Positions 14,837 to 53,056 of a stretch of DNA of 64,000 nt are shown piece after piece. Source of the stretch: Desulfomonile tiedjei. GTDB taxonomy: Bacteria; Desulfobacterota; Desulfomonilia; Desulfomonilales; Desulfomonilaceae. Position 1 is the first letter of the stretch. Each line of letters begins with the position of its first letter. The stretch lies in contig JACRDG010000032.1 in NCBI GenBank assembly GCA_016218715.1, forward strand, positions 310,001-374,000. The letters run 5' to 3'. Both the position numbers and the translations under genes were made by a program. Below the pieces are notes generated by a model. The model saw only the letters and a program-made list of their open reading frames with translations. It was not told the DNA's origin and did no database searches.

Positions 14837-15171
14837 ATCCTAGCATAAGGCGGCAAGAAAACGAGGCGCGTGCTCGGTGCGCGTGGAACGCTCCCGTGGC
14901 CCGTGTCATTTTCGACGCACCTCCTCGGCTCGGCATTGTTCCCGCCAAGACGGCTTATCCTGAGTGGTTTCAGTCAGTTCCTCTCAAAATGCCGTCCTGG
15001 TTTTCGACCCGTCGATCTCAGGCGCCAAACGGAATCTAAGGGTACTACCGACAACTGAACGGATCAGGGCAGCCTTCGGCTGGTGCCATCGGGCCGGTGG
15101 ACACTTCCGGGGACCCGTCGAGCGGAATGGCCGCACGATCCGAACTTGCCATGGGCCAGTGGAGATCATTC

Positions 15172-37162: not shown

Positions 37163-37747
37163 TTATCGTAGGCCATCTTCCTTTTGGGCCTGGTCGATTC
37201 TCAGGCCACCTACTCGGGGGAGTGGGCGCCCGGAGCCGGTTACCACGAGAGCCACCACGATCTCGTCCCCGCGAGGAGCATCTTGAACGCGCACGGGCAT
37301 GGCGTCGAAATGACTCCGGACGAAAGCCGCGTCCTTGTAGTGCACGGGGACGTCGATCTCAGTGCCGGGGCCTCCAATCTTCTTCGCGGAAGGGATGAGG
37401 GCCTTTCCGCCGCCGAGGGCGTCCCTGAACGGTCCACCAAGCTTCGGGTGGAGAATGGCCGCGGCATGTTCGAGCTCGCCCCTGGGGCCCACGATAGCTC
37501 CTTTTCCATAGCTCTGGGCCTGTTCCGGACGGATGCCAAGCGCCTCCAGCGCCATGGAACCAAGTATGCCGCCGAGTTTCTCACCAATGTCGATCAGCTC
37601 GTCCAGGTTCTCCTGATACCCGCCGGCAAAAGGGTTCTTTATCACCGCCACCGCGGCTGCCCGTCGCGTGGGCGGATCGACCGGCCTGCCCATTTCCATA
37701 CGGACTTCTTCCACGATTTTCACTATCTTCCGGATTTCCATGGCCAT
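37163..37747 (-). CDS. Amino acid synthesis family protein (DUF1185)
   Basis: 194 residues, soluble. MEIRKIVKIVEEVRMEMGRP, AAVAVIKNPFAGGYQENLDE and GKGAIVGPRGELEHAAAILH are typical of this family, whose name is historical; its reaction is not known to me. It is the last gene of the tight minus-strand block that includes enamidase and 6-hydroxynicotinate reductase, 42 bases after the UPF0280 gene. Such proteins are often found beside 6-hydroxynicotinate reductase and UPF0280 in other bacteria, as far as I recall, so a role in the pathway or in enzyme maturation is inferred. Confidence 0.85.
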   Translation of the reverse strand: MAMEIRKIVKIVEEVRMEMGRPVDPPTRRAAAVAVIKNPFAGGYQENLDELIDIGEKLGGILGSMALEALGIRPEQAQSYGKGAIVGPRGELEHAAAILHPKLGGPFRDALGGGKALIPSAKKIGGPGTEIDVPVHYKDAAFVRSHFDAMPVRVQDAPRGDEIVVALVVTGSGRPLPRVGGLRIDQAQKEDGLR

Positions 37748-37789: not shown

Positions 37790-38647
37790 TCAGAGGGGTT
37801 TCAAGAATGGGTCAAACCGCGCGGTGCAGAGCGTCCGTTGCTGAACCGTCACGCATGCCCCCATGATCAGACCCCTGTTCGCCAGTGCTTCTCCCCGGTC
37901 GATCCCCCGGGCGAGAGCCCTGGTAACCTCCGCTGAAGTCAACCTACCGACCGAAACGGTAACCGCGACACCCTTGAGGTCGGTGTCCGGGTACAACGTG
38001 TCGGCCGGACGCTGCAGGACCGCCGGAGACGCGAGATAGGTGGCGTTGGCTATCGCAGTCGCAGCAGCATCCGCGATAGCGGCCGTGGAGGCAAAGACGG
38101 TCGCGGCGGAAGCGATGCCCCGAGTGAAACTGCGGCCTCCAAAACCGCTGGTGCACACGCCGCAGACCCCCATCTCTCCGGAGAGAACCACACGATGGGT
38201 GACGGCCGGGCTGTCCACATCACTCCTGATGCCTACGGCGATCCGTTCGCCTGCAACGGCATGGATGGCGAGATCGCCTCCGTTGTTTACAATAACGCGG
38301 GTCAGGCCTTTACCCGTAAGGTAACCTGCAGTCGCGTCCGCGATGGTTCCGGCTACCGCAGCCATCGGGGTTAAGTCAGAGTCACCTATCGCGAGAGCTG
38401 CGGCCCACATGGTGCGAGTGAAAGCGTTCTCCGGGGGCTCCGGGATCTCACACGCAGGTCTCTCCATCTCGGGCCGACACGCTGCGATCTCTTCCAGAAC
38501 CTCGATCGCGTACCGCGCGGCCTCACAACAGACCTCAGGCTGGCGTACTCCACGGACCGACCCATCGATGAACATGCGCATGGGACCGCATTCCACGAGG
38601 ACCGTGTCGTCGCCCAGCTTTAGAATCCGACTCTCCCATCGCCCCAT
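37790..38647 (-). CDS. UPF0280 family protein (ApbE-like fold)
   Basis: 285 residues. Conserved stretches are CGPMRMFIDGSVRGVRQPE, TRTMWAAALAIGDSDLTPMA, VAGTIADATAGYLTGKG, VNNGGDLAIH and GVCTSGFGGRSFTRGIA. NNGGDLAI and the following T-S-G pattern parallel the nucleotide-binding and metal-binding regions of ApbE flavin transferases, and the UPF0280 family is known to share that fold. I start at ATG 38647; the frame upstream runs back into the hairpin and the neighbouring gene. It sits directly downstream of the gene for 6-hydroxynicotinate reductase, whose E. barkeri relative carries covalently bound flavin, so a role in flavin attachment is inferred. Confidence 0.85.
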   Translation of the reverse strand: MGRWESRILKLGDDTVLVECGPMRMFIDGSVRGVRQPEVCCEAARYAIEVLEEIAACRPEMERPACEIPEPPENAFTRTMWAAALAIGDSDLTPMAAVAGTIADATAGYLTGKGLTRVIVNNGGDLAIHAVAGERIAVGIRSDVDSPAVTHRVVLSGEMGVCGVCTSGFGGRSFTRGIASAATVFASTAAIADAAATAIANATYLASPAVLQRPADTLYPDTDLKGVAVTVSVGRLTSAEVTRALARGIDRGEALANRGLIMGACVTVQQRTLCTARFDPFLKPL

Positions 38648-38672
38648 ATGAACCAGCGCCAAAAGAAGTAAC

Positions 38673-38710
38673 CTGGGGGAAACTTCTTTGTGCAAAGAAG
38701 TTTCCCCCAG
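38673..38710. repeat. Perfect 18-bp inverted repeat between hnr and the UPF0280 gene
   Basis: CTGGGGGAAACTTCTTTG is followed after two bases by its exact reverse complement. It begins one base after the hnr stop on the minus strand and ends 25 bases before the UPF0280 start, with no T-run. It is a diverged relative of the family B hairpins and could protect the upstream mRNA end or lower downstream expression. Confidence 0.85.
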
Positions 38711-38711
38711 A

Positions 38712-40211
38712 TTATTTCTTTTGGAGGAAGGGCTTGATTGCCGCTTCGTGGCCACCCATGGCGCGGAAATCTTCCAGAGTCATGGTGTATTCGATGGGGC
38801 AGACCGTGGCCGGTGTTGGGACCCAGGTGAAGGCTCCGGGCATCACCTTTTCCACATCGACCATGAAGTTGATTCCCCCTCCCGGAAGCAGGAAAGTGGG
38901 CGCTCCACCCACCGTGAGCCTCGCCTTCATCGCGTGCACCGCCCGAGTGAGTCTGATGGGGTTACGGGTCACCCCTGCTCGCGCGCTTCCACCGGAGCCG
39001 CCGCAATACACCGCGGAGACCCGGGATTCCTGGCACGAATCGGCCAGTTCGCCGACAGCTTTGACCGCATCCGGAGGCAGGTCGATCTCTTCGAGGTCGC
39101 CTCCTGTGCGGACCCGCAGCATCACCGCGTGCCGGCCGGTGGTCTCGGTGATGAGGATTTTCAGGCCCGGCCGCGCGACGGTCATGTCGATCGATTCGAT
39201 AACCTCAATAGGGTTGGTCACGGAGGTGCCGCCCCAACCCTTGCCGTGATCGCCGAAATACCGGCCCGGGGTGCTCCGCGGGAAACGGAGTCGCACACCG
39301 CTCGGTTTGGCACCCACGTAGATCCCCGCGGCATGTTCGCTCATGAGACCGGTCAGGTGCGAGTCCAGGACGATGACCTCGTCCGCGACGTCCTTGAAGA
39401 TCTGAGAGAAAAGACCCAGCGTAGCGCTGCCGCAGCCGACCCGCATCACGTCGTCGGCCGCGCCGTCTATGACGGGGTGATCGCCTACCTGGAGTTCCAG
39501 GCTGCTTCCCGAGTCGATCCGGAGCTTGACTCGTTTACGATTGGCAATGTCTGCAACGAGTCTCGCGACGGTGAGCCCTTCGGTGGAGGTGAGACGATTC
39601 ACTCCGCCGACAGCGATCATCTTGGAGCCGTATTCCTCGGTGGTAAGATGCCCCACCTTTCGCTTCCGGTGGAAGACCGCTGCCCCTTCCTCGCCGATGT
39701 AGGTGTCGGTGTCAACCTTGAGCTTGATTCCGGAGTAACTCAGCGGCGCTTCGGTGACCACCGTCACCACGTCAATGCCGTCCACGGACGACTGAACGAT
39801 ATGCGGTGCGGCTTTGCAGTCAGGATAGGTGGTCCCTGCGCCGATACCGGTGATGAGCGGCCGGCGGATCGCCGGTCTCCAGTCGGGACCCACCAGGTGT
39901 TTCACCTCTTCGTAGGTCTGCAGAGAGATTGTGCGTTCCAGTGCACCTCCGCGGTTGATGAACCGCTGGCACGCACCGGTGTACCCTGCTTTGATTCTGC
40001 AGCCGATGGGGCATGCTTCGCAGGTGACCGCGTCCGCACCCGAAATCTCCTCGGCACAGATCGCTTCTTCCGGACACACGCGAAGGCAGGCCCGACACCA
40101 ACAGCAAGCCTCTCCAATATGGGCCTTCTTCTTTACCAGCTTGATTGCGGACTGCGGGCAATCAGGAACACAGGTTCCACATCCGGTGCATCTTTCCGTA
40201 ATAACCTGCAT
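38712..40211 (-). CDS. hnr: 6-hydroxynicotinate reductase
   Basis: Ferredoxin-dependent reduction of 6-hydroxynicotinate to 1,4,5,6-tetrahydro-6-oxonicotinate. 499 residues. A two-cluster ferredoxin domain is at the N-terminus (CTGCGTCVPDCP at about 8-19, CCWCRACLRVCP at about 36-47), followed by a third cysteine cluster (CEACPIGCRIKAGYTGAC, about 64-81) that may hold a further centre. The rest has the family's GAGTTYPDC, STEGLTVARL, GCGSATLGLFSQ and GGGINFMVDVEKV segments. The E. barkeri enzyme has one [2Fe-2S], two [4Fe-4S] clusters and covalent flavin; the cysteine pattern here fits. I see no canonical ApbE target motif, so the flavin site is unknown. It lies between enamidase and UPF0280. 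Confidence 0.88.
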   Translation of the reverse strand: MQVITERCTGCGTCVPDCPQSAIKLVKKKAHIGEACCWCRACLRVCPEEAICAEEISGADAVTCEACPIGCRIKAGYTGACQRFINRGGALERTISLQTYEEVKHLVGPDWRPAIRRPLITGIGAGTTYPDCKAAPHIVQSSVDGIDVVTVVTEAPLSYSGIKLKVDTDTYIGEEGAAVFHRKRKVGHLTTEEYGSKMIAVGGVNRLTSTEGLTVARLVADIANRKRVKLRIDSGSSLELQVGDHPVIDGAADDVMRVGCGSATLGLFSQIFKDVADEVIVLDSHLTGLMSEHAAGIYVGAKPSGVRLRFPRSTPGRYFGDHGKGWGGTSVTNPIEVIESIDMTVARPGLKILITETTGRHAVMLRVRTGGDLEEIDLPPDAVKAVGELADSCQESRVSAVYCGGSGGSARAGVTRNPIRLTRAVHAMKARLTVGGAPTFLLPGGGINFMVDVEKVMPGAFTWVPTPATVCPIEYTMTLEDFRAMGGHEAAIKPFLQKK

Positions 40212-40332: not shown

Positions 40333-41493
40333 TCAACCGATACGGGCTTTCCTCCGCGTGGGCGGGGTATTGCGGCTCGTGGTCACCTCTATTTTCCCGT
40401 CGATCATGACCATCGACACTCCGGGGATGTCTCCCGCGGCAATGGCCTCAAGTGCATCTTTGCCGACCGAACCCATGGGAGCGTCCATCGCCACGAGATC
40501 CGCGGGGAGTCCTTCTCGCACAAAGCCCGTATCCAGGCCGAAGACCCGAGCGGTATTGCCGGTGGCCATGCAGAGAGCCTGTTCCGGAGTGACCTCGCTG
40601 AGGGACGCGGCCATGCAGATTACCCTGAGAATACCCAGCGGGACCACGCCCGTCCCGGAAGGCGCATCGTTGCCGATGATGAACCGGTCCAGCGCCTGGT
40701 GTTCGAGTCCCAGTTTCAACGCTTCAATGGTAGCTTTCGGATTGCCGCAATGGACGAGTTCCAGCGTGTACGTGGTTTCGCAGACGAGCTTCTCGATCTC
40801 CTGCACAGAGATCGCTGTCGGCCCTCCGTTCACGTGGCACGCGACATGAGGGTTTGCGCCGATCACCTGATCGGCCGTGACCGTGTCACTGCCTGGTATG
40901 GATGTGCCGCCGGTGTGCATCAGCACGGTCATGCCGTATTTCTTCGCCCATCGCACCATCGGAGCCGCGTCTTCAGCAGATTTTACCGATCCGAGCCCGA
41001 TTTCGCCGACAATTCTGACGCCTTCCCGCGCCATCTCCTCGAAATCCTTTTCTGTGAGCCCTTTTTCCAGGATCACCGCACCCCCCAGGACCTTGGCCCC
41101 GCCCGGTCTGAAATTGGCAAACGACTTTGCCGCCAGGATCGCGAGGGCCTTGGTTCCAGCCGGATCTTTCGGCCGTCCCGGAAGGTGCACTTCTCCCGCG
41201 GAAATGATCGTGGTCACACCACCGTGGACTTCGCTCTCCAGGAACCCGACCTGTTTTTGCCGAGGGGTGTAGTCTCCCAGAACCACATGGCAGTGGGAAT
41301 CGATGAGCCCCGGGGTGATGGTGCTCCCGGCAGCGTCCACGATGAGGTCCGCCGTGATGTGCCCCAGTTCCTGCAGCTTCCCGATTCTCGCGATGTTCGC
41401 GTTTTCCACGAGAATCGCGTCAGCGTCCAGTGCGGGTTGGGCGATGTCGCCACTTATAAGGGTCCCGATGTTCTTGATCAGCGTCTTCGGCAT
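40333..41493 (-). CDS. ena: Enamidase (amidohydrolase of nicotinate degradation)
   Basis: Hydrolyses 1,4,5,6-tetrahydro-6-oxonicotinate to 2-formylglutarate and ammonia. 386 residues of the amidohydrolase superfamily. Metal ligands are visible in GLIDSHCHVVLGD (about 59-71), VLMHTGGTSIPG (about 190-201), LELVHCGNPKA (about 242-252) and FIIGNDAPSGTG (about 270-281, the Asp). The segment YTPRQKQVGFLESEVHGGV resembles E. barkeri enamidase. It starts 12 bases after the molybdopterin-subunit gene and is followed by hnr after 121 bases, so the three catabolic steps are contiguous. A different cyclic-amide hydrolase remains possible, but the context makes this unlikely. Confidence 0.88.
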   Translation of the reverse strand: MPKTLIKNIGTLISGDIAQPALDADAILVENANIARIGKLQELGHITADLIVDAAGSTITPGLIDSHCHVVLGDYTPRQKQVGFLESEVHGGVTTIISAGEVHLPGRPKDPAGTKALAILAAKSFANFRPGGAKVLGGAVILEKGLTEKDFEEMAREGVRIVGEIGLGSVKSAEDAAPMVRWAKKYGMTVLMHTGGTSIPGSDTVTADQVIGANPHVACHVNGGPTAISVQEIEKLVCETTYTLELVHCGNPKATIEALKLGLEHQALDRFIIGNDAPSGTGVVPLGILRVICMAASLSEVTPEQALCMATGNTARVFGLDTGFVREGLPADLVAMDAPMGSVGKDALEAIAAGDIPGVSMVMIDGKIEVTTSRNTPPTRRKARIG

Positions 41494-41505: not shown

Positions 41506-43767
41506 TCAGGGCTTTCTTGCAGACAGGGCCGCTTGCAGCACGCGCTCCAGGCCGGCCGGGAGATCATAGATCCTGACTCCGAGCGCGTCCGCGATTGCAT
41601 TGAGAATGGCCGGAGCGGTGGGAACCAGGGCCGGTTCACCCACACCCTTGGCGCCGAACGGCCCGGTGGGTTCGGGGTCCTCGACGATGATGGGAATCAC
41701 TTCAGGCATGTCCGCTGCAGAGGGGATATGATAGTCCTTCAGCGATTCGGTCTGGCCGGGGACGAACTCCTCCATGAGCGCGAATCCGATCCCCATGGCA
41801 ACTCCGCCGCAGATCTGCCCGTGAACCCCTTGAGGATTCACCGCCTTGCCCACATCGTGCGCCGCGACGACCCTGAGGCATCGGACCTCGCCGGTCAGGG
41901 TGTCCACCGACACTTCGGCCACGTGAGTTGCGAACGCGTATGTTGCGTAAGGTACACCTTGCCCGGTCTCCAGATCAAGCGGCGTGGTGTCGGGATCGAA
42001 AAACCCCTGCCATTTCAGTGGCATTCCCAGTTTATGGCAGCGTCGGGCGATCTCCGCGAACGAGACGGACCGATCCGCATCGCGAACCGCACGGACCGAG
42101 CCGTGCTCCAGAATAACCTTTGCCCGGTCGAACTTGAGCATGTCGGCCGCTTCGGTGAGGAGGACCTCCTTGAGCTTGCGGGCCGCGTCCAGCACCGCGT
42201 TTCCCGATATGTAGGTCTGCCGGCTAGCCGAGGTCGCACCGGCAGATGTGGTCAGGAGCGTGTCTGCTATGACCGTGCGGATGGCCTCCGGCTGAAGGCC
42301 GAGTTCGGCCGCGGCGATCTGAGCGAGTACGGTGGAGGAACCCTGGCCGACGTCCGCGGCTCCCGAATAGAGCACCACTCCTCCGTCCAAGGTGAGTTCC
42401 AGGTGCGCGGTAGCGGGATTCTGTTGTCCGGTATTGCCGATGCCGTACATCATGGACCCGATACCCACACCGCGACGAATGTGCCCTGAGACGGTTCCGT
42501 TTCGCTCGCGCACCGCGGCCGCGTACTGTGGAGCAACCGCGTCCAGCGTCGCCCGAATTCCGACGCTGCCCGTCAACTCCTGGCCCGAGGCGGTGAGCGA
42601 GCCGATCCGGTAGCAGTTTCTCAGCCTGATCTCCAATGGGCTCATCCCGAGCGCCGCGGCCAGAAGGTCCATCTGTGATTCGTGAGCAAAGGCGATCTGG
42701 GGAACTCCGAATCCTCTCATGGCCCCCGCGGTGGGGTTGTTTGTGTACGCCAGGACCGATTCGACGAAGAGATTCGGTAGCTCGTACGGCCCGGTGGCGT
42801 GGAGCGCAACCCGGTTCAGCACCGCGGGCCCGTACGACGCGTACGCGCCGGTGTCGCCGACAACGCGGATGTCTGCAGCAAGCAAACGGCCGTCACGGTT
42901 GGCCGCGCTCTTGTAGGCGATCGTGAGCGGGTGCCTCTTTGGCGTGCACAGAAAGGCTTCCTCGCGGGTGTACACCATCCTGGCCGGACGGTTCAGCAGA
43001 TAGGCAGCGAGCCCCACGAATCCCTGAACATTCAGATCCAATTTCGAACCGAACCCCCCTCCGGTTGCCGCCTGAATGATGCGGACGCTCCCTTCATCGA
43101 GTCCCAGCAGCTCTGCAACGTCTTTTTGATCGTAATGGGGGTTTTGGGTAGATGCGTGGATCACCAGCGTGCTTCCGTCCATATATCCGAGTCCCGCGTC
43201 CGGTTCGAGATACGCGTGTTCCAGATGAGCCGTCGTGTAGACCCGCTCCACCACGACATCTGCGTGTTTGAACGCGGCTTCGGGATTCCCTCGTTTGACC
43301 GTGCGCCTGCCGAGCAGGTTCCCGTCCGCGTGGACGAGGGGAGCTCCCGGTCTCAGTGCTTCTTCGGGGTCGAAGAGCGCTGAAATGTCCTCATACTCGA
43401 CCCGAATCGCTGCTGCAGCCTCTCGGGCCGCTTCCAGGGTTTCCGCAGCGACCAGAGCGACGGGATCGCCGATGCATCTCACTTTGTCGTCAGCAAGCAG
43501 GGGCTGGTCTTTTCTGATGATCCCCACGCGGTTGCGGCCGGGAACGTCCTCCGCCGTGAAGACCCGTAGACACTCGGAAATATGCTGGGCCCGAGACACG
43601 TCTATTCCGACGATACGCGCGTGAGGCCTTTCACTTCTGACCGCGACCAGGTGGACCGCTTCCGGCAGGTCGATGTCCGCGGCAAAGGAGGCCTTGCCCA
43701 GCAGGCGCTCCCGTGAGCCGATCCTCTCGACCTTTTCGCCTATGACGCCAGCCGGCCGATCACCCAT
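41506..43767 (-). CDS. Molybdopterin-binding large subunit of a nicotinate-dehydrogenase-like hydroxylase
   Basis: Xanthine-oxidase-family catalytic subunit, 753 residues, predicted to hydroxylate nicotinate at C6. Mo-cofactor contacts are seen in AATGGGFGSKLDLN (about 228-241), TAGAMRGFGVPQ (about 345-356), DVGQGSSTVLAQIAAAELG and the catalytic glutamate in GAKGVGEPALVP (about 710-721). In E. barkeri this subunit is split into two proteins (NdhL and NdhM) and carries labile selenium; here it is one chain. The start ATG at 43767 lies nine bases after the FAD-subunit stop. Substrate is assigned by context, since the family also includes many other aromatic and purine hydroxylases. Confidence 0.88.
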   Translation of the reverse strand: MGDRPAGVIGEKVERIGSRERLLGKASFAADIDLPEAVHLVAVRSERPHARIVGIDVSRAQHISECLRVFTAEDVPGRNRVGIIRKDQPLLADDKVRCIGDPVALVAAETLEAAREAAAAIRVEYEDISALFDPEEALRPGAPLVHADGNLLGRRTVKRGNPEAAFKHADVVVERVYTTAHLEHAYLEPDAGLGYMDGSTLVIHASTQNPHYDQKDVAELLGLDEGSVRIIQAATGGGFGSKLDLNVQGFVGLAAYLLNRPARMVYTREEAFLCTPKRHPLTIAYKSAANRDGRLLAADIRVVGDTGAYASYGPAVLNRVALHATGPYELPNLFVESVLAYTNNPTAGAMRGFGVPQIAFAHESQMDLLAAALGMSPLEIRLRNCYRIGSLTASGQELTGSVGIRATLDAVAPQYAAAVRERNGTVSGHIRRGVGIGSMMYGIGNTGQQNPATAHLELTLDGGVVLYSGAADVGQGSSTVLAQIAAAELGLQPEAIRTVIADTLLTTSAGATSASRQTYISGNAVLDAARKLKEVLLTEAADMLKFDRAKVILEHGSVRAVRDADRSVSFAEIARRCHKLGMPLKWQGFFDPDTTPLDLETGQGVPYATYAFATHVAEVSVDTLTGEVRCLRVVAAHDVGKAVNPQGVHGQICGGVAMGIGFALMEEFVPGQTESLKDYHIPSAADMPEVIPIIVEDPEPTGPFGAKGVGEPALVPTAPAILNAIADALGVRIYDLPAGLERVLQAALSARKP

Positions 43768-43776
43768 GACGCATCC

Positions 43777-44634
43777 TCAGAGCAAAACCTCGGTCAGGGC
43801 TTTTGTGACGAGCCCTTCCACCGCGGGCCGTTTATATTCCGTGGAGTGCCGTATCCCGGCCCGGCGAACCATCTCCCGCGAAACAAGATTCGCCGCCTCT
43901 CGGACAAGTTCAAGGTCAGGGATTTGCCTCATGAGGAACTCCTCAGCCGCGGTCATCCGTGCAGGCCGAGGGACCACCGACCCCACGGAAAGCCTGAGAT
44001 CGGCGATTCTCCCGTTCTCGCCCAAACTCGCAACAACCGCTGCGTTGATCCTCGCGACGGAAAGGGCCCTCCGCCTCGCGATGCGCTGAAAGCTGTGGCG
44101 CCACCCATTTTCGAGCGGTTCCAGGAAAAAGCGTGCGATCAGCTCATGGGGCTGCAGAATTGTTTGGTACGGCGCGACGATGAGTTCCTCCAACGGGATT
44201 GTGCGCGGGCCTGCGGCGCTCTCGATTCTGACCAGAGCCTTGTGGACGAGCATCGCGGGGACGCTGTCCGCTGCAGGGGACGCGTTTGCCACGTTTCCGC
44301 CGAGCGTGCCCTTGTTGCGGATCTGGACGCTCCCCACGCAGCCCGCTGCTTGGCACAGCACGGGCGCGGCGGAGCGGATCTCGCAACTAGCCGTGATTTC
44401 CGTGTACGTCAGAGCTGCGCCGACGGAGAGCAGGCCGTCTTCGCGGTCAATGCAGCGCAATTCCTCGAGTCGGGAGACGTCCAGGATGAAATCACGATTG
44501 AGGTCCTCCCGTCGGACCGCGATCATCAGGTCGGTCCCACCAGCGAGCACGGACGTGCGCGAGCCGTGAACCAGCAGAAAGTCCAGCGCTTCCTTCAGAG
44601 TTCCGGGCCTGAGGTATCGAAACCGAGGGCTCAT
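43777..44634 (-). CDS. FAD-binding medium subunit of the nicotinate-dehydrogenase-like hydroxylase
   Basis: 285 residues of the CO-dehydrogenase/xanthine-dehydrogenase flavoprotein family. FAD-binding motifs are LAGGTDLMIAVRRE (about 32-45) and IRNKGTLGGNVANASPAADS (about 103-122). It passes electrons from the Fe-S subunit to an acceptor, probably NAD(P). The ATG at 44634 overlaps the preceding stop as ATGA, so translation is coupled; longer in-frame starts would overlap the Fe-S subunit deeply and are not needed. Confidence 0.92.
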   Translation of the reverse strand: MSPRFRYLRPGTLKEALDFLLVHGSRTSVLAGGTDLMIAVRREDLNRDFILDVSRLEELRCIDREDGLLSVGAALTYTEITASCEIRSAAPVLCQAAGCVGSVQIRNKGTLGGNVANASPAADSVPAMLVHKALVRIESAAGPRTIPLEELIVAPYQTILQPHELIARFFLEPLENGWRHSFQRIARRRALSVARINAAVVASLGENGRIADLRLSVGSVVPRPARMTAAEEFLMRQIPDLELVREAANLVSREMVRRAGIRHSTEYKRPAVEGLVTKALTEVLL

Positions 44635-45149
44635 TCTTTTGCGTCTCGTCCAGTGCATTCTTGTGCAGCCGCGGCTTCCACGGCTTCGATGATCTGGAGG
44701 TAACCGGTGCAACGGCACAGATTCCCCGAGAGGGCCTCGACAATTGCCTTGCGGCCGGGTGCTGCCTCACCCTGAAGCAGTGCCTTTGCCGACATCAGCA
44801 TCCCGGGGGTACAGTAGCCACACTGGACTGCGTCGTGGGACAGGAACGCCTGCTGCAACGGGTTCAGCGTCTCCCGGTCCGCCAGGCCTTCCACGGTCTC
44901 GACGGTTCGGCCGTCGAGCTGAGGGGCGAACAAGAGGCACGCGTCCACAGCAAGCCCGTCAACCAGGACCGTGCATGCGCCGCATTCCCCGATGCCGCAC
45001 CCCTCTTTCGGCCCTTTGAGCCCGAGCCGGTCCCTCAACACCGACAGAGCCGTCTCTGCAGCGTTGACCTGGAGGCCCACCAGCTTCCCGTTCAGTTCAA
45101 ATGAAATGGTGACCGATTCGGGGATCTCCCGGTCCCTATCGTTTGGCAT
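44631..45149 (-). CDS. [2Fe-2S] small subunit of the nicotinate-dehydrogenase-like hydroxylase
   Basis: 172 residues with both [2Fe-2S] sites of the family: plant-ferredoxin-like GCGIGECGACTVLVDG (about 50-65) plus an upstream-downstream Cys, and the helical site CGYCTPGM ... CRCTGY (about 110-155). It transfers electrons from the Mo site to FAD. It begins 14 bases after the livF stop, which suggests that the transporter and enzyme genes share one transcript. Confidence 0.93.
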   Translation of the reverse strand: MPNDRDREIPESVTISFELNGKLVGLQVNAAETALSVLRDRLGLKGPKEGCGIGECGACTVLVDGLAVDACLLFAPQLDGRTVETVEGLADRETLNPLQQAFLSHDAVQCGYCTPGMLMSAKALLQGEAAPGRKAIVEALSGNLCRCTGYLQIIEAVEAAAAQECTGRDAKE

Positions 45150-45163
45150 GTCTCATCCTCCGG

Positions 45164-45901
45164 TTAGAGGGCCAGGTAGGATTTCCTCACGTGATCGTTG
45201 TCGCTCATCTCGTGACCGGTCCCTTGTAGCACGATGCGACCGTTTTCCAGCACGTATGCTCGGTCGGTGATTTCCAGAGAATAATGAACGTTCTGCTCGA
45301 CGAGCAGGACCGTGACTCCCGTGGCCGCGATCCCCCGGATGGCCTCAAAGACTTTGATCACCAGAAGCGGAGCGAGGCCCAGAGAAGGTTCGTCCAGTAA
45401 CAGGAGCTTCGGCCGCGACATAAGGGCCCGGCTGATTGCCAGCATCTGCCGTTCTCCGCCGCTGAGGGTTCCGCCCTTCTGGTGCATCCGCTCGGCGAGC
45501 CTCGGGAAGAATTGGAAAACCCTCTGGAGTGTCTCATCTCTCCGCCCGCGGGCCTCCTTCAAATAGGAACCCATTTTGAGGTTGTCCAATACGCTCATCT
45601 CCGCGAAGACTCGTGCTCCCTCGGGGACGGTGGTAAGCCCGTGCCGCACGACCTTCTCCGGAGTCAGGTGGTCAATGGGCTGATCCTCAAACACGATGGA
45701 TCCCTTGTGAGGATGCCGGAATCCCACGATCGTGTTGAGAAGCGTGCTCTTGCCTGCGCCGTTGGGCCCGATGACCGTTACGATCTCTCCCTTGCAGACG
45801 TACAGGCTGACGTCTCTCAGAACCTGGACGTCCCGGTAGGAGACATCGATGCCGTCAACGGCCAGCAACGTTTCAGTCATTTCCCCGGCCATCCGACTCA
45901 T
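45164..45901 (-). CDS. livF: Branched-chain-type ABC transporter ATPase LivF
   Basis: 245 residues. Walker A IGPNGAGKSTLLN (about 44-56), signature LSGGERQMLAISRAL (about 146-160), Walker B LLLLDEPSLGLAP and the family-typical VPEGARVFAEMSV. All catalytic residues are in place. The ATG at 45901 overlaps livG by 29 bases; ATG codons at 45889 or 45880 are alternatives. In this operon the importer probably carries nicotinate or a related carboxylate rather than an amino acid, which is inference from the catabolic neighbours. Confidence 0.9.
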   Translation of the reverse strand: MSRMAGEMTETLLAVDGIDVSYRDVQVLRDVSLYVCKGEIVTVIGPNGAGKSTLLNTIVGFRHPHKGSIVFEDQPIDHLTPEKVVRHGLTTVPEGARVFAEMSVLDNLKMGSYLKEARGRRDETLQRVFQFFPRLAERMHQKGGTLSGGERQMLAISRALMSRPKLLLLDEPSLGLAPLLVIKVFEAIRGIAATGVTVLLVEQNVHYSLEITDRAYVLENGRIVLQGTGHEMSDNDHVRKSYLAL

Positions 45902-46631
45902 GCGCGAGCGATACTCCCTTGCTGCCGAGATACGCCTCGACGACCTGCGGGTCGTTCACGACTTCGGAAGGTTTGCCCTCCGCGATCTTGGCGCCGTAGT
46001 TCAGCACAACGATCCGATCGGCAATCCCCATCACCGCGCGCATGATGTGTTCCACCACGATCATCGATTTTCCGGACTCGCGAATCTTGCGCAACAGATC
46101 GAGGGCTTCGTCGATTTCGTTCGGATTGAGACCCGCCATGTTTTCGTCCAGGAGCAACACCTGGGCTCGAGTAGCGAGGGCTTTGGCCAGCTCCAGCCTG
46201 CGTCGAGCCGGTACTGAGATGTCTCCGGAAAGTTTGTCGCTCTGATCCTCCAGCCCGACGAACTCGAGGACCTCTGCCGTCTCCCGTGCTGCTTCGGCCA
46301 TTCGCATCTGCCCGCCGTGGAGCGCCGCCACCAGGACATTCTCGAAGACGGTCATCGCACGGAACGGCTCCACGGTCTGCGATGTCTTGGCCATGCCCAG
46401 CCGGCATATCTGGTGCGGCTTCATGCCTGTGACGTCGCGCCCGTTGAAAACGATCCGTCCCTGAGTCGGCCGGTATAGGCCGATGATACAATTGAACAGC
46501 GTGGATTTGCCCGCGCCGTTCGGGCCGATCATGCCGAGCGCTTCTCCGCGGTTGAGGGCAAAACTCACCGTATGCACCGCAGAGAGCGCTCCGAAATTCT
46601 TCGTCACGTTGTCGCACTCGAGCAAAACCAT
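45873..46631 (-). CDS. livG: Branched-chain-type ABC transporter ATPase LivG
   Basis: 252 residues. Walker A IGPNGAGKSTLFN is normal. The signature region reads LSGDISVPARRRLELAKAL instead of the usual L-x-Y-G-x-x-R-x-L-E-I-A-R-A-L, and Walker B reads LLLDENMAGLNP with Asn in place of Pro. The Q-loop (GMAKTSQTVEPFRAMTVFEN) is also slightly unusual. The ATPase partner LivF is fully canonical, so the pair could be asymmetric. It starts 16 bases after livM. Confidence 0.88.
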   Translation of the reverse strand: MVLLECDNVTKNFGALSAVHTVSFALNRGEALGMIGPNGAGKSTLFNCIIGLYRPTQGRIVFNGRDVTGMKPHQICRLGMAKTSQTVEPFRAMTVFENVLVAALHGGQMRMAEAARETAEVLEFVGLEDQSDKLSGDISVPARRRLELAKALATRAQVLLLDENMAGLNPNEIDEALDLLRKIRESGKSMIVVEHIMRAVMGIADRIVVLNYGAKIAEGKPSEVVNDPQVVEAYLGSKGVSLAHESDGRGND

Positions 46632-46647
46632 GTACCGATCCGGAGGT

Positions 46648-47601
46648 TCAGATAAACCGTAGCCCCATTCGCTCCTTGAGGGTGCCCACGATCCCTCGCG
46701 GCATCACGAGAATGATCGCGATGATGATCACGCCCACCATGACGAGGTAGTATTCCACGAATGCCGTCCCCAGCACTTCGTAGATGATCGTCAAGAGTGC
46801 CGCTCCCACGATGGGTCCCAATAGGGTGCCCATGCCTCCGAGCAAGGTCATGATCACCATCTGCACGGTGTTGTGCACGTTGAATGCTGAGTCAGGGGTG
46901 ATGTATGTGATCCAGTACGCTTCGATGCCGCCGAAGATACCGAGAAAAAAAGCGCTGGTAACATAGGCGCGCAATTTTATGCCCGTGGTGTTCACCCCCG
47001 CGATCTCCGCCGCGGATTCCGCTTCGTGAATGGCCTTTAGGCCATAACCAAACTTGGAACGCTCGATGCCGTAATGGACCAACAGGACCGCCAGGGTCAC
47101 CGGAAGGAGGCAGTAGAAGAAAAACGTGTTGTCATGACCGCTTATCGGCAACGTGATGCCGTGACTCCCCTCGAAGAAGGAGACCCCGAACGTGCGGTCG
47201 AATTCGAGGCAAACCTGCTTCATGGTCTCGGCAAACGCGAACGTGGCAATGGCAAAATAGGCCCCCTTGAGATGTAGGGTCGGGATGCCGATGGGGAGCG
47301 CAACCAGAGCGGCCACAACCCCGGACAGGAGCGCGGAGGGGACAAACGGCAGGCCGTACTTGGTCATGGCAATCGCAGTGGCATATGAGCCAAGCCCAAA
47401 ATAAACCACCGGGCCGAAATCGATGTACCCGGTGTACCCACTCATGATGTTCCAGCATCCTGCCATGCCGATCCAGAGGAGCACCCCGCCTGCCACCCGC
47501 AAAGTGAACTCGGACGGGGTCAGCATCGGCATCAGGCCGACGAGCAGCGTCGCAGCAGCGAAACAAGTCCAGAATGTCCTCCCCGTGCTTCCTCTGTTCA
47601 C
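46648..47601 (-). CDS. livM: Branched-chain-type ABC transporter permease LivM
   Basis: About 317 residues with some ten membrane helices. Family motifs are GYTGYIDFGPVVYFGLGSY (about 55-73), GLKAIHEAESAAEIAGVN (EAA-like loop) and LLGGMGTLLGPIVGA. I use the GTG at 47601 (VNRGSTGRTFWTCF), directly before the first helix; the open frame runs back to a TTG at 47685 that overlaps livH, and those residues have no family resemblance. Confidence 0.88.
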   Translation of the reverse strand: MNRGSTGRTFWTCFAAATLLVGLMPMLTPSEFTLRVAGGVLLWIGMAGCWNIMSGYTGYIDFGPVVYFGLGSYATAIAMTKYGLPFVPSALLSGVVAALVALPIGIPTLHLKGAYFAIATFAFAETMKQVCLEFDRTFGVSFFEGSHGITLPISGHDNTFFFYCLLPVTLAVLLVHYGIERSKFGYGLKAIHEAESAAEIAGVNTTGIKLRAYVTSAFFLGIFGGIEAYWITYITPDSAFNVHNTVQMVIMTLLGGMGTLLGPIVGAALLTIIYEVLGTAFVEYYLVMVGVIIIAIILVMPRGIVGTLKERMGLRFI

Positions 47602-47659
47602 GGCAAACCCGCATCTTTCGGACCTGGCGTAATCCGGGTATCTCGCAGCACCCGCTCGC

Positions 47660-48532
47660 TCATGTTGCCATCCCTTTCCCGACAATTCCTGCAGGGCGCA
47701 CGATCAGCATTACGAAGAGCATCAGGAATGTGATGGCAACCGAAATCCCGGCACTCAAGTACGTCGCAGCGAGGGACTGGGCTACGCCGAGAATCGCGCC
47801 GCCCCAGAGGGCTCCGGGCATGTACCCCATCCCTCCCAGTACCACTACGCAAAAGGCCACGATGGTGTAATTCAATCCCATCTCCGGGAAAATGATCACG
47901 AACGGGCTGATGGACGCGCCTGCCAGCCCGGTTATCCCGGCCCCGATGCCGAATGTGACCGCATAGATCTCACGAACGTTAACCCCCATCAGCCGCGCCA
48001 CGTCTTTGTCCATAGCCGTGGCCCGGATGGCTCGACCGGTCTCCGTCCGGTCGAGGAAGAACCACAGGCCTGCGATGACCATCCCCGCGAGAAAGAACGT
48101 GATTAACCGAGCGTACGGGATGTTCAGCCCCCAAAAAGCCGCGTTCGCCCCCGAATACGATGTGGTGATGGACCTGAAATCGTGTGACCACATTTTCAAG
48201 GCCAGGTTCGCCACGATCAGGTGAATGCCGAAAGTGAGGATATAGCTCATGATGTGGGGCTGGTCGATCACCCGATTGATCACGTACTTCTGGATGAGGT
48301 ACCCGAACACGAACAGCAGTACCGTCGCGAACGGCAGCGATAGATAGGGATCGACATGAAAGCAGTCGAACATCCAGTACGACGTGAACGCCCCGAGCAT
48401 GATCAGCTCACCGTGAGCCAGGTTCACGACACCCATCACTCCGAAGATCAGGGAAAACCCCGCGGAGTAGGCTGCGTACACTCCTCCCAGGAGGAGTCCG
48501 TTGATCACTGCTTGAATGAATACGGTTTCCAT
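47660..48532 (-). CDS. livH: Branched-chain-type ABC transporter permease LivH
   Basis: 290 residues, about eight helices, METVFIQAVINGLLLGGVYA at the start and VVNLAHGELIMLGAF, RAIRATAMDKDVARLMGVN (EAA-like loop) and VVLGGMGYMPGALWGG as family marks. It is the first gene of the block livHMGF plus hydroxylase subunits, enamidase, reductase, UPF0280 and DUF1185, and it has its own promoter and putative operator upstream. Confidence 0.92.
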   Translation of the reverse strand: METVFIQAVINGLLLGGVYAAYSAGFSLIFGVMGVVNLAHGELIMLGAFTSYWMFDCFHVDPYLSLPFATVLLFVFGYLIQKYVINRVIDQPHIMSYILTFGIHLIVANLALKMWSHDFRSITTSYSGANAAFWGLNIPYARLITFFLAGMVIAGLWFFLDRTETGRAIRATAMDKDVARLMGVNVREIYAVTFGIGAGITGLAGASISPFVIIFPEMGLNYTIVAFCVVVLGGMGYMPGALWGGAILGVAQSLAATYLSAGISVAITFLMLFVMLIVRPAGIVGKGMAT

Positions 48533-48723: not shown

Positions 48724-50205
48724 CTAAATCCACCGGGCTGTGACGGTCTTCTCGTCCAGAAAGAGCCGCATCGATGCCATCCTGCTCTTGGCCCCGCCCA
48801 AGAAGGACTTGCGCTTCGATCCTAGCGGGAAGAAGGCGTACGGCTGGGGCACGCCAACGTTGATGCCGACGTTGCCGACGACGACCTCGCGCGCGAACTT
48901 GCGCGCATTCCGGCCGCTGGCTGTCATGATGCAGGCGGAATGGCCGAGATCGGTCTTCGTGTTGATCCACTGGATGGCTTCGTCGAGACTCTGCGTCCGA
49001 ATCAGGCCGGCCACGGCACCGAAGGCCTCTTCTTTGGCGATCTCCATGTCCGGGTGGACGTTTTCGATAATGGTCGGACCCATGAAAAAACCTTGGGACA
49101 ATTCCGGACCCAGAATGCGGCCGTCGTGCACCATGGTCGCGCCTTCGGCCAAGCCGCGTTCGACCCACGATCGGACTTTTTCCCGACCTTCGGCGGTGCA
49201 GTACGGGCCCAGGTCGGTAGATTGCTCGAGGCCGTAACCCAGCCTCATGTTCCCGACTTCTTCAACGAACCGTTGCTTGAATTCGTCGTATACGTCTCCG
49301 ACGACCATCAGGTTGTCCGAACCGAGGCAGCGCTGGCCGGTCATGCCGAAACATCCCTGACGAACAAAGGGAATGATAGCCTTTACGTCTGCGTCGGGCA
49401 TGATTACGACGCTGTTCTTGCCATTGCCGTTGATGGAGGAGTTCTTGCCGAGTTCGCCGCACAGCTTGAAGAGCTCCCAGCCTGCGCTGGTAGAACCGAT
49501 GAAACCGAGGCCCCGGATTTCCGGCTGCCGGAGAATGAACTTGTTGATCTCCCGTCCGCCGTGGACCATATTGATTGCCCCTTTGGGCCAACCCGCGTCC
49601 AAGGCAGCCCGGCACACGTACTCGGCAGCGACGGGGTCCTGTCGGCTGGGGCTGACCACCACCGAACAGCCCGCGGCGAGCGCATAGGGAACGAAGGAGG
49701 ACCATGCGTGCATCGGGATGTTCCCCGGCGTGACGATAAGAAAAGCGCCCATGGGCTCCCAGGTCAACCACATGTCGATCCCGTTGGCAAGCTCGTCGAG
49801 GTGCTCATTCCGGGCGACCAAGCCGTAGGCTGCCGAACAGGCTGATTCGATGTTCTCGATCACCCGCCGCACCGAGCCCACTGACTCCTTGATCGTCCGG
49901 CCGTGGTCTTGTGTCAGGACCCGGGTCAGTTCGTCAAAATGTTCCTCAAATTTCTGGCGCATATCGAAGAGCATCCGGGCTCTTTCGCGTAACGGGATTC
50001 TCCTCATGGCTTCGAAACCCCGTTGGGCCGCTTCCACCGCGGCTCGAGCTTCTTCTCGGGTAGCAGTGGGAAACTCGGCGATGATCTCGCCGGTGGCCGG
50101 ATTGAGCGTCTCGTAGCTTTGGGTGGACTTGGACTCCACCCATTCGCCGTCAATCAGCAGCTTGAGTCTTCCGTAATGTCTCTTGACTTCGGGTAACAGA
50201 GCCAT
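48724..50205 (-). CDS. CoA-acylating aldehyde dehydrogenase, methylmalonate-semialdehyde dehydrogenase type
   Basis: 493 residues. Catalytic Cys in GMTGQRCLGS (about 280-289), NAD-site VTPGNIPMHAWSS (about 150-162) and FIGSTSAG. At the place where most aldehyde dehydrogenases have the general base Glu (E-L-G-G-K), this protein has INGNGKN, i.e. Asn, as in the CoA-dependent MmsA family (N-M-G-A-K-N). The C-terminal VGNVGINVGVPQPYAFFPLG and the ending EKTVTARW also follow MmsA. MmsA oxidises 2-methyl-3-oxopropanoate with CO2 loss to an acyl-CoA. 2-Formylglutarate has the same malonate-semialdehyde core, so conversion to glutaryl-CoA is inferred. AAGGAG precedes the ATG at 50205. Probably co-transcribed with the XRE regulator. 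Confidence 0.85.
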   Translation of the reverse strand: MALLPEVKRHYGRLKLLIDGEWVESKSTQSYETLNPATGEIIAEFPTATREEARAAVEAAQRGFEAMRRIPLRERARMLFDMRQKFEEHFDELTRVLTQDHGRTIKESVGSVRRVIENIESACSAAYGLVARNEHLDELANGIDMWLTWEPMGAFLIVTPGNIPMHAWSSFVPYALAAGCSVVVSPSRQDPVAAEYVCRAALDAGWPKGAINMVHGGREINKFILRQPEIRGLGFIGSTSAGWELFKLCGELGKNSSINGNGKNSVVIMPDADVKAIIPFVRQGCFGMTGQRCLGSDNLMVVGDVYDEFKQRFVEEVGNMRLGYGLEQSTDLGPYCTAEGREKVRSWVERGLAEGATMVHDGRILGPELSQGFFMGPTIIENVHPDMEIAKEEAFGAVAGLIRTQSLDEAIQWINTKTDLGHSACIMTASGRNARKFAREVVVGNVGINVGVPQPYAFFPLGSKRKSFLGGAKSRMASMRLFLDEKTVTARWI

Positions 50206-50342: not shown

Positions 50343-50897
50343 CTAAAACGTGGGAGGACTGATCACCCACACCACAATGGTTTCGCTTGATCCTGGATTG
50401 GTCCAGTTGTGAGGTTGGGAGGAACTGTAGTAGAAGCTCTCGTTTTCTTTGACCAAATGAGCGACCCCGTCCAGATCGATCTCCAGTTGCCCTTTGAGCA
50501 CAATGCCGAATTCCTCCCCCACGTGAGAGTACGATCCGTGGGAACCACCACCGGGTTGAATGATAGTGTAAAACGGATGCATGCGTTTATTCTTTGGATC
50601 GGCAATCATAGACCAAATTTCAGCGTTCCATCGATCCAGAGAAATGAGCACACGCTGGTCGGGTCTGACTACCACCGGCTCGTCAGGAACCGATTCCAGA
50701 AAGAGATCCGTTATCTTGGCTTGAAGCGCGTCTGCGATCTTTTTCAAACTCGCGATGGATGGCGAGACTTTCCCGTTTTCAATCTGTGACAAATACGCGC
50801 TGGAGCAGCGGGCTTTCTCGGCCAGCTGTTTGAGGGTCTGGTGATTGCTCAGACGACGTGCCCTGATTTTGGCACCGATGTCTAATTCCAACGGCAT
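50343..50897 (-). CDS. XRE-family regulator with C-terminal cupin domain
   Basis: 184 residues. HTH at about 8-62 (LKQLAEKARCSSAYLSQIENGKVSPSIASLKKIA read in two pieces) and a cupin_2 barrel at about 105-180 with GEEFGIVLKGQLEIDLDG and SSQPHNWTNPG. It is the likely local regulator of the nicotinate genes: it is divergent to none, precedes the aldehyde dehydrogenase on the same strand and has a palindromic operator overlapping its own start of transcription. The cupin may bind a pathway intermediate. Confidence 0.87.
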   Translation of the reverse strand: MPLELDIGAKIRARRLSNHQTLKQLAEKARCSSAYLSQIENGKVSPSIASLKKIADALQAKITDLFLESVPDEPVVVRPDQRVLISLDRWNAEIWSMIADPKNKRMHPFYTIIQPGGGSHGSYSHVGEEFGIVLKGQLEIDLDGVAHLVKENESFYYSSSQPHNWTNPGSSETIVVWVISPPTF

Positions 50898-51445: not shown

Positions 51446-52669
51446 CTAGCGATCCTTCCACGGTTTGAACGGGAACCAGATCTTGGATTCCGCGAACTCC
51501 AACGGAAAGACGTTCATGAGCTTGCCATTCTGAATCTGGACCGCGACCGGCGGATGAGCCGCGGTAGCGCCGTCCTTGCCAAACTGGAGCTTTCCGTAGA
51601 AGGTCTCGAACGTCTTCTCGTGGAGTTTCTCCATGATGGCCTGCCGCTGTTCTTTGGTGAGAGGCGGTTTCAACTTCAGCTCCTGGAGCACCAACTGCTG
51701 GGCGACCGCTCCGCCGGCAGATGCTGCCTCGACGTAGTCGGGATAGCGCTTGAACTTCTCGAAGTAGAGACGGTTGAAGTCGCTGGCGCCCCCGAAGACC
51801 GGTCCTTTGTACGGCATATTGGGGGTCCACTCCGAGGCTGCGATGACAAATTCCGCGTCCCCCTTCAGATCTTCGATGAACTTGGGAACGGTCGGCCCGT
51901 AGCTAAAGGCAACCGCTTTCGGGCTGAAATCGATCTCTTTGAGGGCCTTCATGGTCTTCATGGCCACGAGGAGATGCGATCCGACGAGGAGCACGTCGGG
52001 ATTCTTCTGCTTCACCTTGAGGAGCAGCGAGTTGTAGTCCTGAAGCGACATGGGGAACAGCTCGAAATGCACGACCTCGATGCCGTTTTCCGCACAGTAT
52101 TTCTTGTATCCTTCACAGGCCAATGCGGTGAACAGGATATCCGCTCCGACGATTGCCGCGGTCTTGGGTTTGGGGTCGACCGCGCGGAAGATGTCCACGC
52201 AACCGCGGACTTCTTCAGTGGCCTTGCCGAGAGCCGAGAAGTAGTATTTGAAGCCCCGTTCGAACAATTTGTCGGAGCTGGCCCCGCCGCTGATCAGAGG
52301 ATACCCGTACTTCTCCGATACCGCACTCGCGGCAAAGACCTGGCTGCTGCCGAACCCGCCCAGGAGCAGATCGACCTTGTCGCTCACGATGAGCTGTTCG
52401 GTGAGCTTGGCAGTCGTAGCCGGCTCGCTCTTGTCGTCGTAGAAGATCAGCTCGACCGGGTGGCCGTTGATCCCTCCCTTGGCATTAACGGTCTCCTTCC
52501 AGAGCGTGTACGCGTCCTGAACCAGGCTGCCGTCTTTTCCGAACACCCCGGTGAGGGAAACGGCCACTCCGATCCGGAATGGTTGGGGTTGCTGGGCCTG
52601 AACGGTCATGCCGAGAAAGAGGCAGAACGCCAGGGTGATGTTTAACGCCACGATATACTTGCGGTACAT
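51446..52669 (-). CDS. Liv-type ABC transporter substrate-binding protein
   Basis: 407 residues. Signal peptide MYRKYIVALNITLAFCLFLG to about AQA (residue 26), then a type-1 periplasmic binding fold with FRIGVAVSLTGVFGKDGSLV, VNAKGGINGHPVELIFYDDK and LLGGFGSSQVFAASAVSEKY. AGGAGAG precedes the ATG at 52669. It most likely feeds the livHMGF transporter 3 kb away, the only Liv permease in the window, and thus would bind nicotinate or a similar acid (inference). Confidence 0.88.
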   Translation of the reverse strand: MYRKYIVALNITLAFCLFLGMTVQAQQPQPFRIGVAVSLTGVFGKDGSLVQDAYTLWKETVNAKGGINGHPVELIFYDDKSEPATTAKLTEQLIVSDKVDLLLGGFGSSQVFAASAVSEKYGYPLISGGASSDKLFERGFKYYFSALGKATEEVRGCVDIFRAVDPKPKTAAIVGADILFTALACEGYKKYCAENGIEVVHFELFPMSLQDYNSLLLKVKQKNPDVLLVGSHLLVAMKTMKALKEIDFSPKAVAFSYGPTVPKFIEDLKGDAEFVIAASEWTPNMPYKGPVFGGASDFNRLYFEKFKRYPDYVEAASAGGAVAQQLVLQELKLKPPLTKEQRQAIMEKLHEKTFETFYGKLQFGKDGATAAHPPVAVQIQNGKLMNVFPLEFAESKIWFPFKPWKDR

Positions 52670-53056
52670 CCATCTCTCCTTCCTGATGGTCACATGATGA
52701 GCGATGTACGGAGGGCCCAGGCTACCAGATCGCCCTCGGTTCCCCACGCACTGACATCCTCATCCGACGCAGATCCTTCCCCTCAGTTGGACAGGTCTCC
52801 ACGCGGTTCGGGCACATGACTCCGATTCCACCTGTGACGAGGCGGCGATGACCGAGGTCCGCGGAACAAACTATAACGGCATCGAGGCATGAGTCAACGC
52901 AATTGTGGAGACTTCCGACTCAATGAGACCTGCCCTTCTTACATTTCGGTAGCAGATCCCGGAAAAAATACATCCCTGTCGGTCCTCAGGTCGGCTTCGG
53001 GCGAACCGAAATAATTAACTCACAGGAATAACTGCATATTCCAGAGAAGACTTTTC

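Follow-up and report, generated by a model that had tools for sequence, protein, structure and literature searches.

A predicted CoA-acylating, decarboxylating 2-formylglutarate dehydrogenase encoded in an anaerobic nicotinate operon

When the ring of nicotinate has been opened to 2-formylglutarate, how might this aldehyde reach central metabolism? The question is raised by a locus of Desulfomonile tiedjei in which genes of the upper nicotinate pathway share an operon with a gene for an aldehyde dehydrogenase (ALDH; its product is called P0001 here). The window, that is, the whole stretch of 64,000 nucleotides that was analysed, belongs to a genome of 5.55 Mb that is assembled into 124 contigs, with a completeness of 99.99% and a contamination of 3.71%. 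We consider it quite likely that P0001 catalyses the reaction 2-formylglutarate + CoA + NAD(P)+ -> glutaryl-CoA + CO2 + NAD(P)H, a prediction supported by the operon synteny, the genomic association and the active-site residues, all of which fit a CoA-acylating decarboxylation of 2-formylglutarate.

The original prediction gave the ALDH gene the right coordinates, but the open 493-aa frame places it on the minus strand (Table 1), and stops are present when 48724-50205 is read as the plus strand. An in-frame GTG upstream of the ATG would extend P0001 to 548 aa; the alignment with relatives begins at the ATG, the start used here. The closest named relatives of the gene are found in four Desulfomonile MAGs, at 82-86% identity, with a fifth at 75%. 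The Liv-like genes, which probably encode an ABC transporter for the uptake of nicotinate, have homologues in the same order at three related loci (L063-L065), and in the operons of many other relatives TRAP-type transporter genes replace them (L069, L072, L111-L114; by inspection, on one sequence each). Just past the operon, at 54362-56440, a long protein is encoded, the repeats of which look, by eye, like ankyrin repeats.

Table 1 Features of the nicotinate operon and its immediate surroundings in the window
Feature	Coordinates	Strand	Details
AA_synth (DUF1185) protein	37163..37747	-	PF06684; 2qtp 260 bits; travels with HNR
PRK04334-type (UPF0280-like) protein	37790..38755	-	PRK04334 models below cut-off; HNR neighbour in relatives
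6-hydroxynicotinate reductase (HNR) homologue	38712..40211	-	N-terminal 4Fe-4S part; annotated plasmid homologues
Enamidase (makes 2-formylglutarate)	40333..41493	-	Full-length match to 2VUN (505 bits; runner-up 29)
Molybdenum hydroxylase large subunit, nicotinate dehydrogenase type	41506..43767	-	Best PDB match 3HRD
Molybdenum hydroxylase FAD subunit	43777..44718	-	PF00941, PF03450
Molybdenum hydroxylase 2Fe-2S subunit	44631..45149	-	PF01799; XdhC-type models below cut-off
LivF, LivG, LivM, LivH-like ABC transporter genes (four)	45164..48532	-	ORFs named by inspection
Aldehyde dehydrogenase (ALDH; P0001), CoA-acylating type	48724..50205	-	493 aa; predicted 2-formylglutarate dehydrogenase (decarboxylating, glutaryl-CoA forming)
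XRE-cupin transcriptional regulator	50343..50897	-	HTH_3 + Cupin_2
ABC transporter substrate-binding protein	51446..52747	-	PF13458

The substrate of the operon is taken to be nicotinate because its upper enzymes match nicotinate dehydrogenase, HNR and enamidase, and because a nicotinamidase-like gene accompanies related loci: this cluster occurs in 8 of them, and the one member that was checked had nicotinamidase as its top match, with 153 bits. Residues 7-411 of the molybdenum hydroxylase large subunit align with the large chain A of 3HRD (413 bits), which we take to be the E. barkeri nicotinate dehydrogenase, and residues 431-748 with its medium chain B (275 bits), so that the protein looks as if two 3HRD chains had been fused; in the same PDB sequence search, 4-hydroxybenzoyl-CoA reductase scored 366 bits. 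For the HNR homologue, identity to plasmid genes is 39-47%, and most of these genes, where annotated, bear the name 6-hydroxynicotinate reductase; no family model names the protein in NCBI-type and Pfam profile searches. Nicotinate dehydrogenase type, HNR and enamidase thus occur together here, HNR being judged by annotated homologues only, and it is in these three that the operon resembles nicotinate fermentation by E. barkeri, although the molybdenum subunit is one chain here and two there. The product of the enamidase in E. barkeri is 2-formylglutarate, according to two papers (PMC9304392, PMC7356986).

Across the phylum, UPF0280-like and DUF1185 genes trail HNR, and a gene beside HNR at one further locus (L124) is annotated UPF0280. 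They may be HNR accessories. On three Alpha-/Betaproteobacterial plasmids the genes after HNR carry the annotations UPF0280, amino acid synthesis or hypothetical, and at two of these loci (L123 and L125) they precede a pair of genes resembling acetophenone carboxylase or hydantoinase. In one genome (that of L122) the usual genes are joined by a second, divergent HNR (46%) with its own enamidase (41%), perhaps for another pyridine.

What kind of aldehyde dehydrogenase, then, is P0001? Its best NCBI model is TIGR01722, which describes the CoA-acylating methylmalonate-semialdehyde dehydrogenase (MMSDH; MmsA/IolA, with structures 1T90 and 5TJR), and the score of 342.3 bits lies below the curated cut-off of 448.5. 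A PDB sequence search with P0001 returned MMSDH for all of the top ten matches (310 to 238 bits), the first non-MMSDH following at 203. We further calculated a maximum-likelihood tree of 54 sequences, comprising 19 rows of the lineage to which P0001 belongs (lineage A; every fifth member plus P0001), 10 of lineage B, 9 of lineage C, 10 further rows, two MMSDH references and four ordinary ALDHs. The branch dividing the MMSDH-like side, with all three lineages, the further rows and the references, from the four ordinary ALDHs has a support of 100/100. Judged by tree and score, P0001 is a member of the MMSDH-like branch and not a curated MMSDH; the membership in the CoA-acylating MmsA type that was originally proposed fits the place in the tree and the residues described below, but not the TIGR01722 cut-off. 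Within the MMSDH-like side, the grouping of A with B is weak (88/76), and residues common to both may therefore reflect either inheritance or convergence. The predicted structure of P0001 has a mean pLDDT of 84.1, with a poor loop at 450-462, and its comparison with known structures gave almost equal scores for the MMSDH 1T90 (Z 48.7) and a betaine aldehyde dehydrogenase, 6WSA (Z 47.1), so that the fold alone does not discriminate.

The key residues of P0001 are R114, N162, N259, R292, C293 and E393, and the motifs on which the original prediction was built are all present: SINGNGKN (with N259), QRC (Q291-R292-C293) and an MMSDH-like C-terminus that ends in KTVTARWI. Residues were counted over 123 sequences, left from 143 after the removal of 4 partial lineage A proteins and 16 identical copies. 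R114, N162, R292, C293 and E393 are invariant in lineages A (90/90), B (10/10) and C (9/9). The positions of R114 and R292 are those of two arginines that never vary in MMSDH; in the B. subtilis enzyme, both are said, after work by Talfournier from 2011, to hold the carboxylate of the substrate. Where the four ordinary ALDHs of the alignment have the general-base Glu, Asn is found in 90/90 lineage A proteins, Gln in lineage B and Leu in both MMSDH references. The change from Glu to Asn had been read as a feature of MMSDH; the loss of Glu is indeed common to these enzymes, but the Asn is not, both references having Leu.

Further differences from both references lie in the pocket: the Met at site 166 is replaced by His, the Trp at 170 by Ser, the Phe at 461 by Leu and the Trp at 464 by Lys or Arg. 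H422, L/V461, K/R464 and R475 are common to lineages A and B (with one exception, a Met at site 461 of one A protein); neither lineage C nor either of the references has them. Site 461 presumably corresponds, by equivalence in ALDH2 numbering, to the substrate-pocket Phe of ALDH2. From this pattern we infer that the residues at 422, 461, 464 and 475 are candidates for accommodating a substrate that is longer and carries an additional carboxylate. At site 185, by contrast, the lineages part: Lys is found in both references, in 10/10 B and in 9/9 C, and is missing in 86/90 A, which have Ser or Ala, so that the cofactor of A may be either NAD or NADP.

The association of lineage A with nicotinate genes extends well beyond this locus. 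HNR was detected in 59 of the 395 genomes of the phylum, source genome included, and enamidase in 58 of these 59. Lineage A, defined by at least 53% identity to P0001 with at most three candidates scored per genome, is present in 37/59 HNR genomes as against 1/336 HNR-negative genomes, the sole exception being 81% complete; two of the 37 are partial matches (G012, 247 residues at 60%; G321, 399 residues at 72%). Lineage A and HNR share a contig in 30 of these 37 genomes, with gaps of at most 10.7 kb. Eleven further HNR genomes encode, no more than about 10 kb away from HNR or enamidase, an ALDH that is 32-37% identical to P0001; the ten of these that were read form lineage B, and the remaining one (G142) was assigned to it by position and identity only. 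Either A or B is thus found in 48/59 HNR genomes. The other 11 have neither near HNR or enamidase; in several of them HNR lies on a short contig, but five of these genomes are at least 90% complete, which argues against a strict rule.

The same picture emerges with lineage A as bait among named genomes, where loci were fetched for 80 of 116 confirmed relatives. HNR or enamidase is encoded in 44 of the 48 loci that span at least 12 kb, and in 56 of all 80; two of the other four long loci have molybdenum hydroxylase subunits and DUF1185 only, and two have none of the seven genes sought. The hosts include Desulfobacterales, Syntrophorhabdus, Peptococcaceae, other Bacillota, an Armatimonadetes MAG and a Gammaproteobacteria MAG. 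Among the cultured relatives with the operon are Desulfocarbo indianensis and strain NaphS2. Lineage A is also found on a 5.4-kb contig of a Hecatellales archaeal MAG, where misbinning is possible.

How one lineage may stand in for the other is seen in three genomes from two other genera of the same family, in which the ALDH slot of the operon holds lineage B, 32-36% identical to P0001. The run from ALDH through LivHMGF, the three molybdenum hydroxylase subunits, enamidase, HNR and UPF0280 to DUF1185 is conserved in all three, the non-ALDH proteins being 44-87% identical. The upstream order differs, the regulator and the substrate-binding gene being swapped in L064; in the other two lineage B loci the regulator lies outside the examined stretch. 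When scored against the TIGR01722 cut-off of 448.5, two of three lineage B proteins pass (487 and 490) and the third reaches 441. The simplest reading of this exchange is that A and B share one job, and that this job would be CoA-acylating.

The original prediction called for a search for glutaryl-CoA dehydrogenase, and the enzyme was found: one protein, of the Desulfococcus type, scores 475 bits against NF045552 (GlutCoADH_Des), the cut-off of which is 470, and its best PDB match is 3MPI with 405 bits (next 301). The genome also encodes the A subunit of glutaconyl-CoA decarboxylase (747 bits to 3GF3, as against 143 for the highest-scoring other enzyme). The two genes lie on contigs C12 and C67, away from the operon; the former stands by itself, next to genes that by eye resemble tgt, yajC and secDF. 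Any linkage of glutaryl-CoA dehydrogenase to the operon was rejected: a tblastn search over 144 stretches gave matches in just four, all of them to acyl-CoA dehydrogenases with an identity of 28-35%. The window itself has an acyl-CoA dehydrogenase gene at 15097-16338, about 35% identical to glutaryl-CoA dehydrogenase and far from the operon. Across the phylum the glutaryl-CoA dehydrogenase model is matched in 50/59 HNR genomes versus 106/336 others, counts that rest on an E-value limit (at most 1e-110) rather than the curated cut-off and show an enrichment that is confounded by kinship. The model is also matched in 17 of 18 additional genomes from which named loci came (E at most 1e-90), but only 9 pass its cut-off. 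These downstream enzymes could also serve other pathways.

In agreement with the original prediction, a Pfam scan of 20 proteins of the window revealed none of the later genes of the E. barkeri pathway, and inspection by eye of the clusters that recur in 60 related loci did not reveal any either. PrpF, which we take to be the family of the methylitaconate isomerase, and SDH_alpha, presumably that of the hydroxymethylglutarate dehydratase of E. barkeri, have no match in the 99.99%-complete genome, while the same searches were positive in 2 and 9 of 14 controls.

From these observations we infer which substrate and cofactor P0001 uses, that it acylates CoA and decarboxylates, and the flux through the whole route, which would run as follows. 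Nicotinate would be hydroxylated to 6-hydroxynicotinate, reduced to 1,4,5,6-tetrahydro-6-oxonicotinate and opened by the enamidase to 2-formylglutarate, upon which P0001 would act as the fourth enzyme of the anaerobic pathway. R114 and R292 would hold the carboxylate that adjoins the aldehyde, C293 would form the thiohemiacetal, and a hydride would then pass to NAD(P)+; the carboxylate next to the aldehyde would leave as CO2, and the acyl group would be transferred to CoA to give glutaryl-CoA. The chemistry would be that of MMSDH with CH2CH2COO- replacing the methyl group. Enzymes encoded outside the operon would then oxidise glutaryl-CoA to glutaconyl-CoA, decarboxylate this to crotonyl-CoA and lead on to acetyl-CoA.

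Other readings of the locus have to be weighed against this scheme. One could speculate that 2-formylglutarate loses CO2 first, spontaneously or through another enzyme, and that P0001 acylates the resulting glutarate semialdehyde without decarboxylating. Spontaneous loss of CO2 from beta-aldehydo acids is established chemistry, so that such a step could proceed unaided, and the CoA-acylating features of P0001 would fit equally well; yet the two arginines, which in MMSDH hold the carboxylate of the substrate, are kept in 90/90 A and 10/10 B, and no decarboxylase was recognised by eye among the recurring clusters of related loci, and we regard prior decarboxylation as unlikely. A nicotinate route through glutarate, as described for Azorhizobium (PMC3511419), would be compatible with this order of events and also with a hydrolytic P0001, which would yield free glutarate for activation by a CoA-transferase or ligase as in Azorhizobium. 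Hydrolysis is, however, hard to reconcile with the absence of the general-base Glu from all 90 lineage A proteins and with the replacing lineage, two of whose three scored proteins are of the curated CoA-acylating type; moreover, no CoA-transferase was recognised in the 24 most recurrent clusters (ten of them judged by eye, on one sequence each), and we hold free glutarate as the product to be quite improbable.

A chance presence in the operon of an ordinary methylmalonate- or malonate-semialdehyde dehydrogenase is, to our minds, slightly less credible still: MMSDHs are the closest characterised enzymes, but the score under the TIGR01722 cut-off, the near-exclusive co-occurrence with HNR and the pocket changes relative to both references led us to reject this identity. 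The resemblance of the upper enzymes to those of E. barkeri might suggest that the organism runs the lower pathway of that species, through hydroxymethylglutarate, methyleneglutarate and a B12 mutase, leaving the ALDH with some other role. Given the missing PrpF and SDH_alpha families, both detectable in controls, and the lack of recognisable genes for it in the recurrent clusters of the related loci, this was rejected as well, and we attach hardly any probability to it. A direct acylating decarboxylation of 2-formylglutarate by P0001 is thus the reading that we retain.

How much of this would be new? With MMSDH, P0001 shares the place in the tree, the catalytic Cys, both arginines, the loss of Glu and the C-terminal signature; it departs from MMSDH in having Asn rather than Leu at the Glu column, in sites 166, 170, 422, 461, 464 and 475, in the loss of Lys 185 from most of its lineage, in its tie to HNR genomes and in its score (342 vs 448.5 bits). 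To our knowledge, MMSDHs are the only ALDHs that decarboxylate during acylation. From E. barkeri the system differs in that its operon contains an ALDH of the acylating type, while the families of two later E. barkeri enzymes are absent from the genome. The glutaryl-CoA dehydrogenase and glutaconyl-CoA decarboxylase, of the kind known from Desulfococcus, are present in the genome as general downstream enzymes outside the operon. In Azorhizobium, the later steps are CoA transfer to glutaryl-CoA and then crotonyl-CoA. Its earlier steps take the reduced ring through glutarate (PMC3511419, citing Kitts 1992), and since this route is already described, the destination is not new. Both the reduction to tetrahydro-oxonicotinate and a route at the level of a C5 dicarboxylate are shared with Azorhizobium caulinodans, which passes through free glutarate; the enzyme in the operon studied here, in contrast, looks CoA-acylating and would skip both glutarate and the CoA transfer. 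The step had been put forward as undescribed. The C5 dicarboxylate destination is known from Azorhizobium; for the direct acylation, no paper proposing it was found among the matches listed in a search of the open-licence literature. A single acylating step would be new.

On balance, we lean towards regarding lineages A and B as an undescribed family of CoA-acylating, decarboxylating 2-formylglutarate dehydrogenases that would define a pathway from nicotinate to glutaryl-CoA. This pathway would be common among anaerobes, occurring in Thermodesulfobacteriota, in Bacillota, in one MAG of the Armatimonadetes and perhaps in an archaeon. Within an otherwise syntenic operon, one of the two lineages would have displaced the other in situ; A and B would share extra residues, basic or in the pocket, that serve the second carboxylate, and the NAD(P) site may be altered in lineage A. 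If true, this would broaden the substrate range of decarboxylating, acylating ALDHs, and a single step would join the breakdown of nicotinate to ordinary energy metabolism, the energy of the aldehyde being kept as a thioester with no CoA transfer spent. It would also explain how vitamin B3 is turned into central metabolites in many anaerobes known mainly from metagenomes, among them relatives of sulfate reducers and syntrophs, and the ALDH gene family could be used as a metagenome marker of nicotinate degraders.
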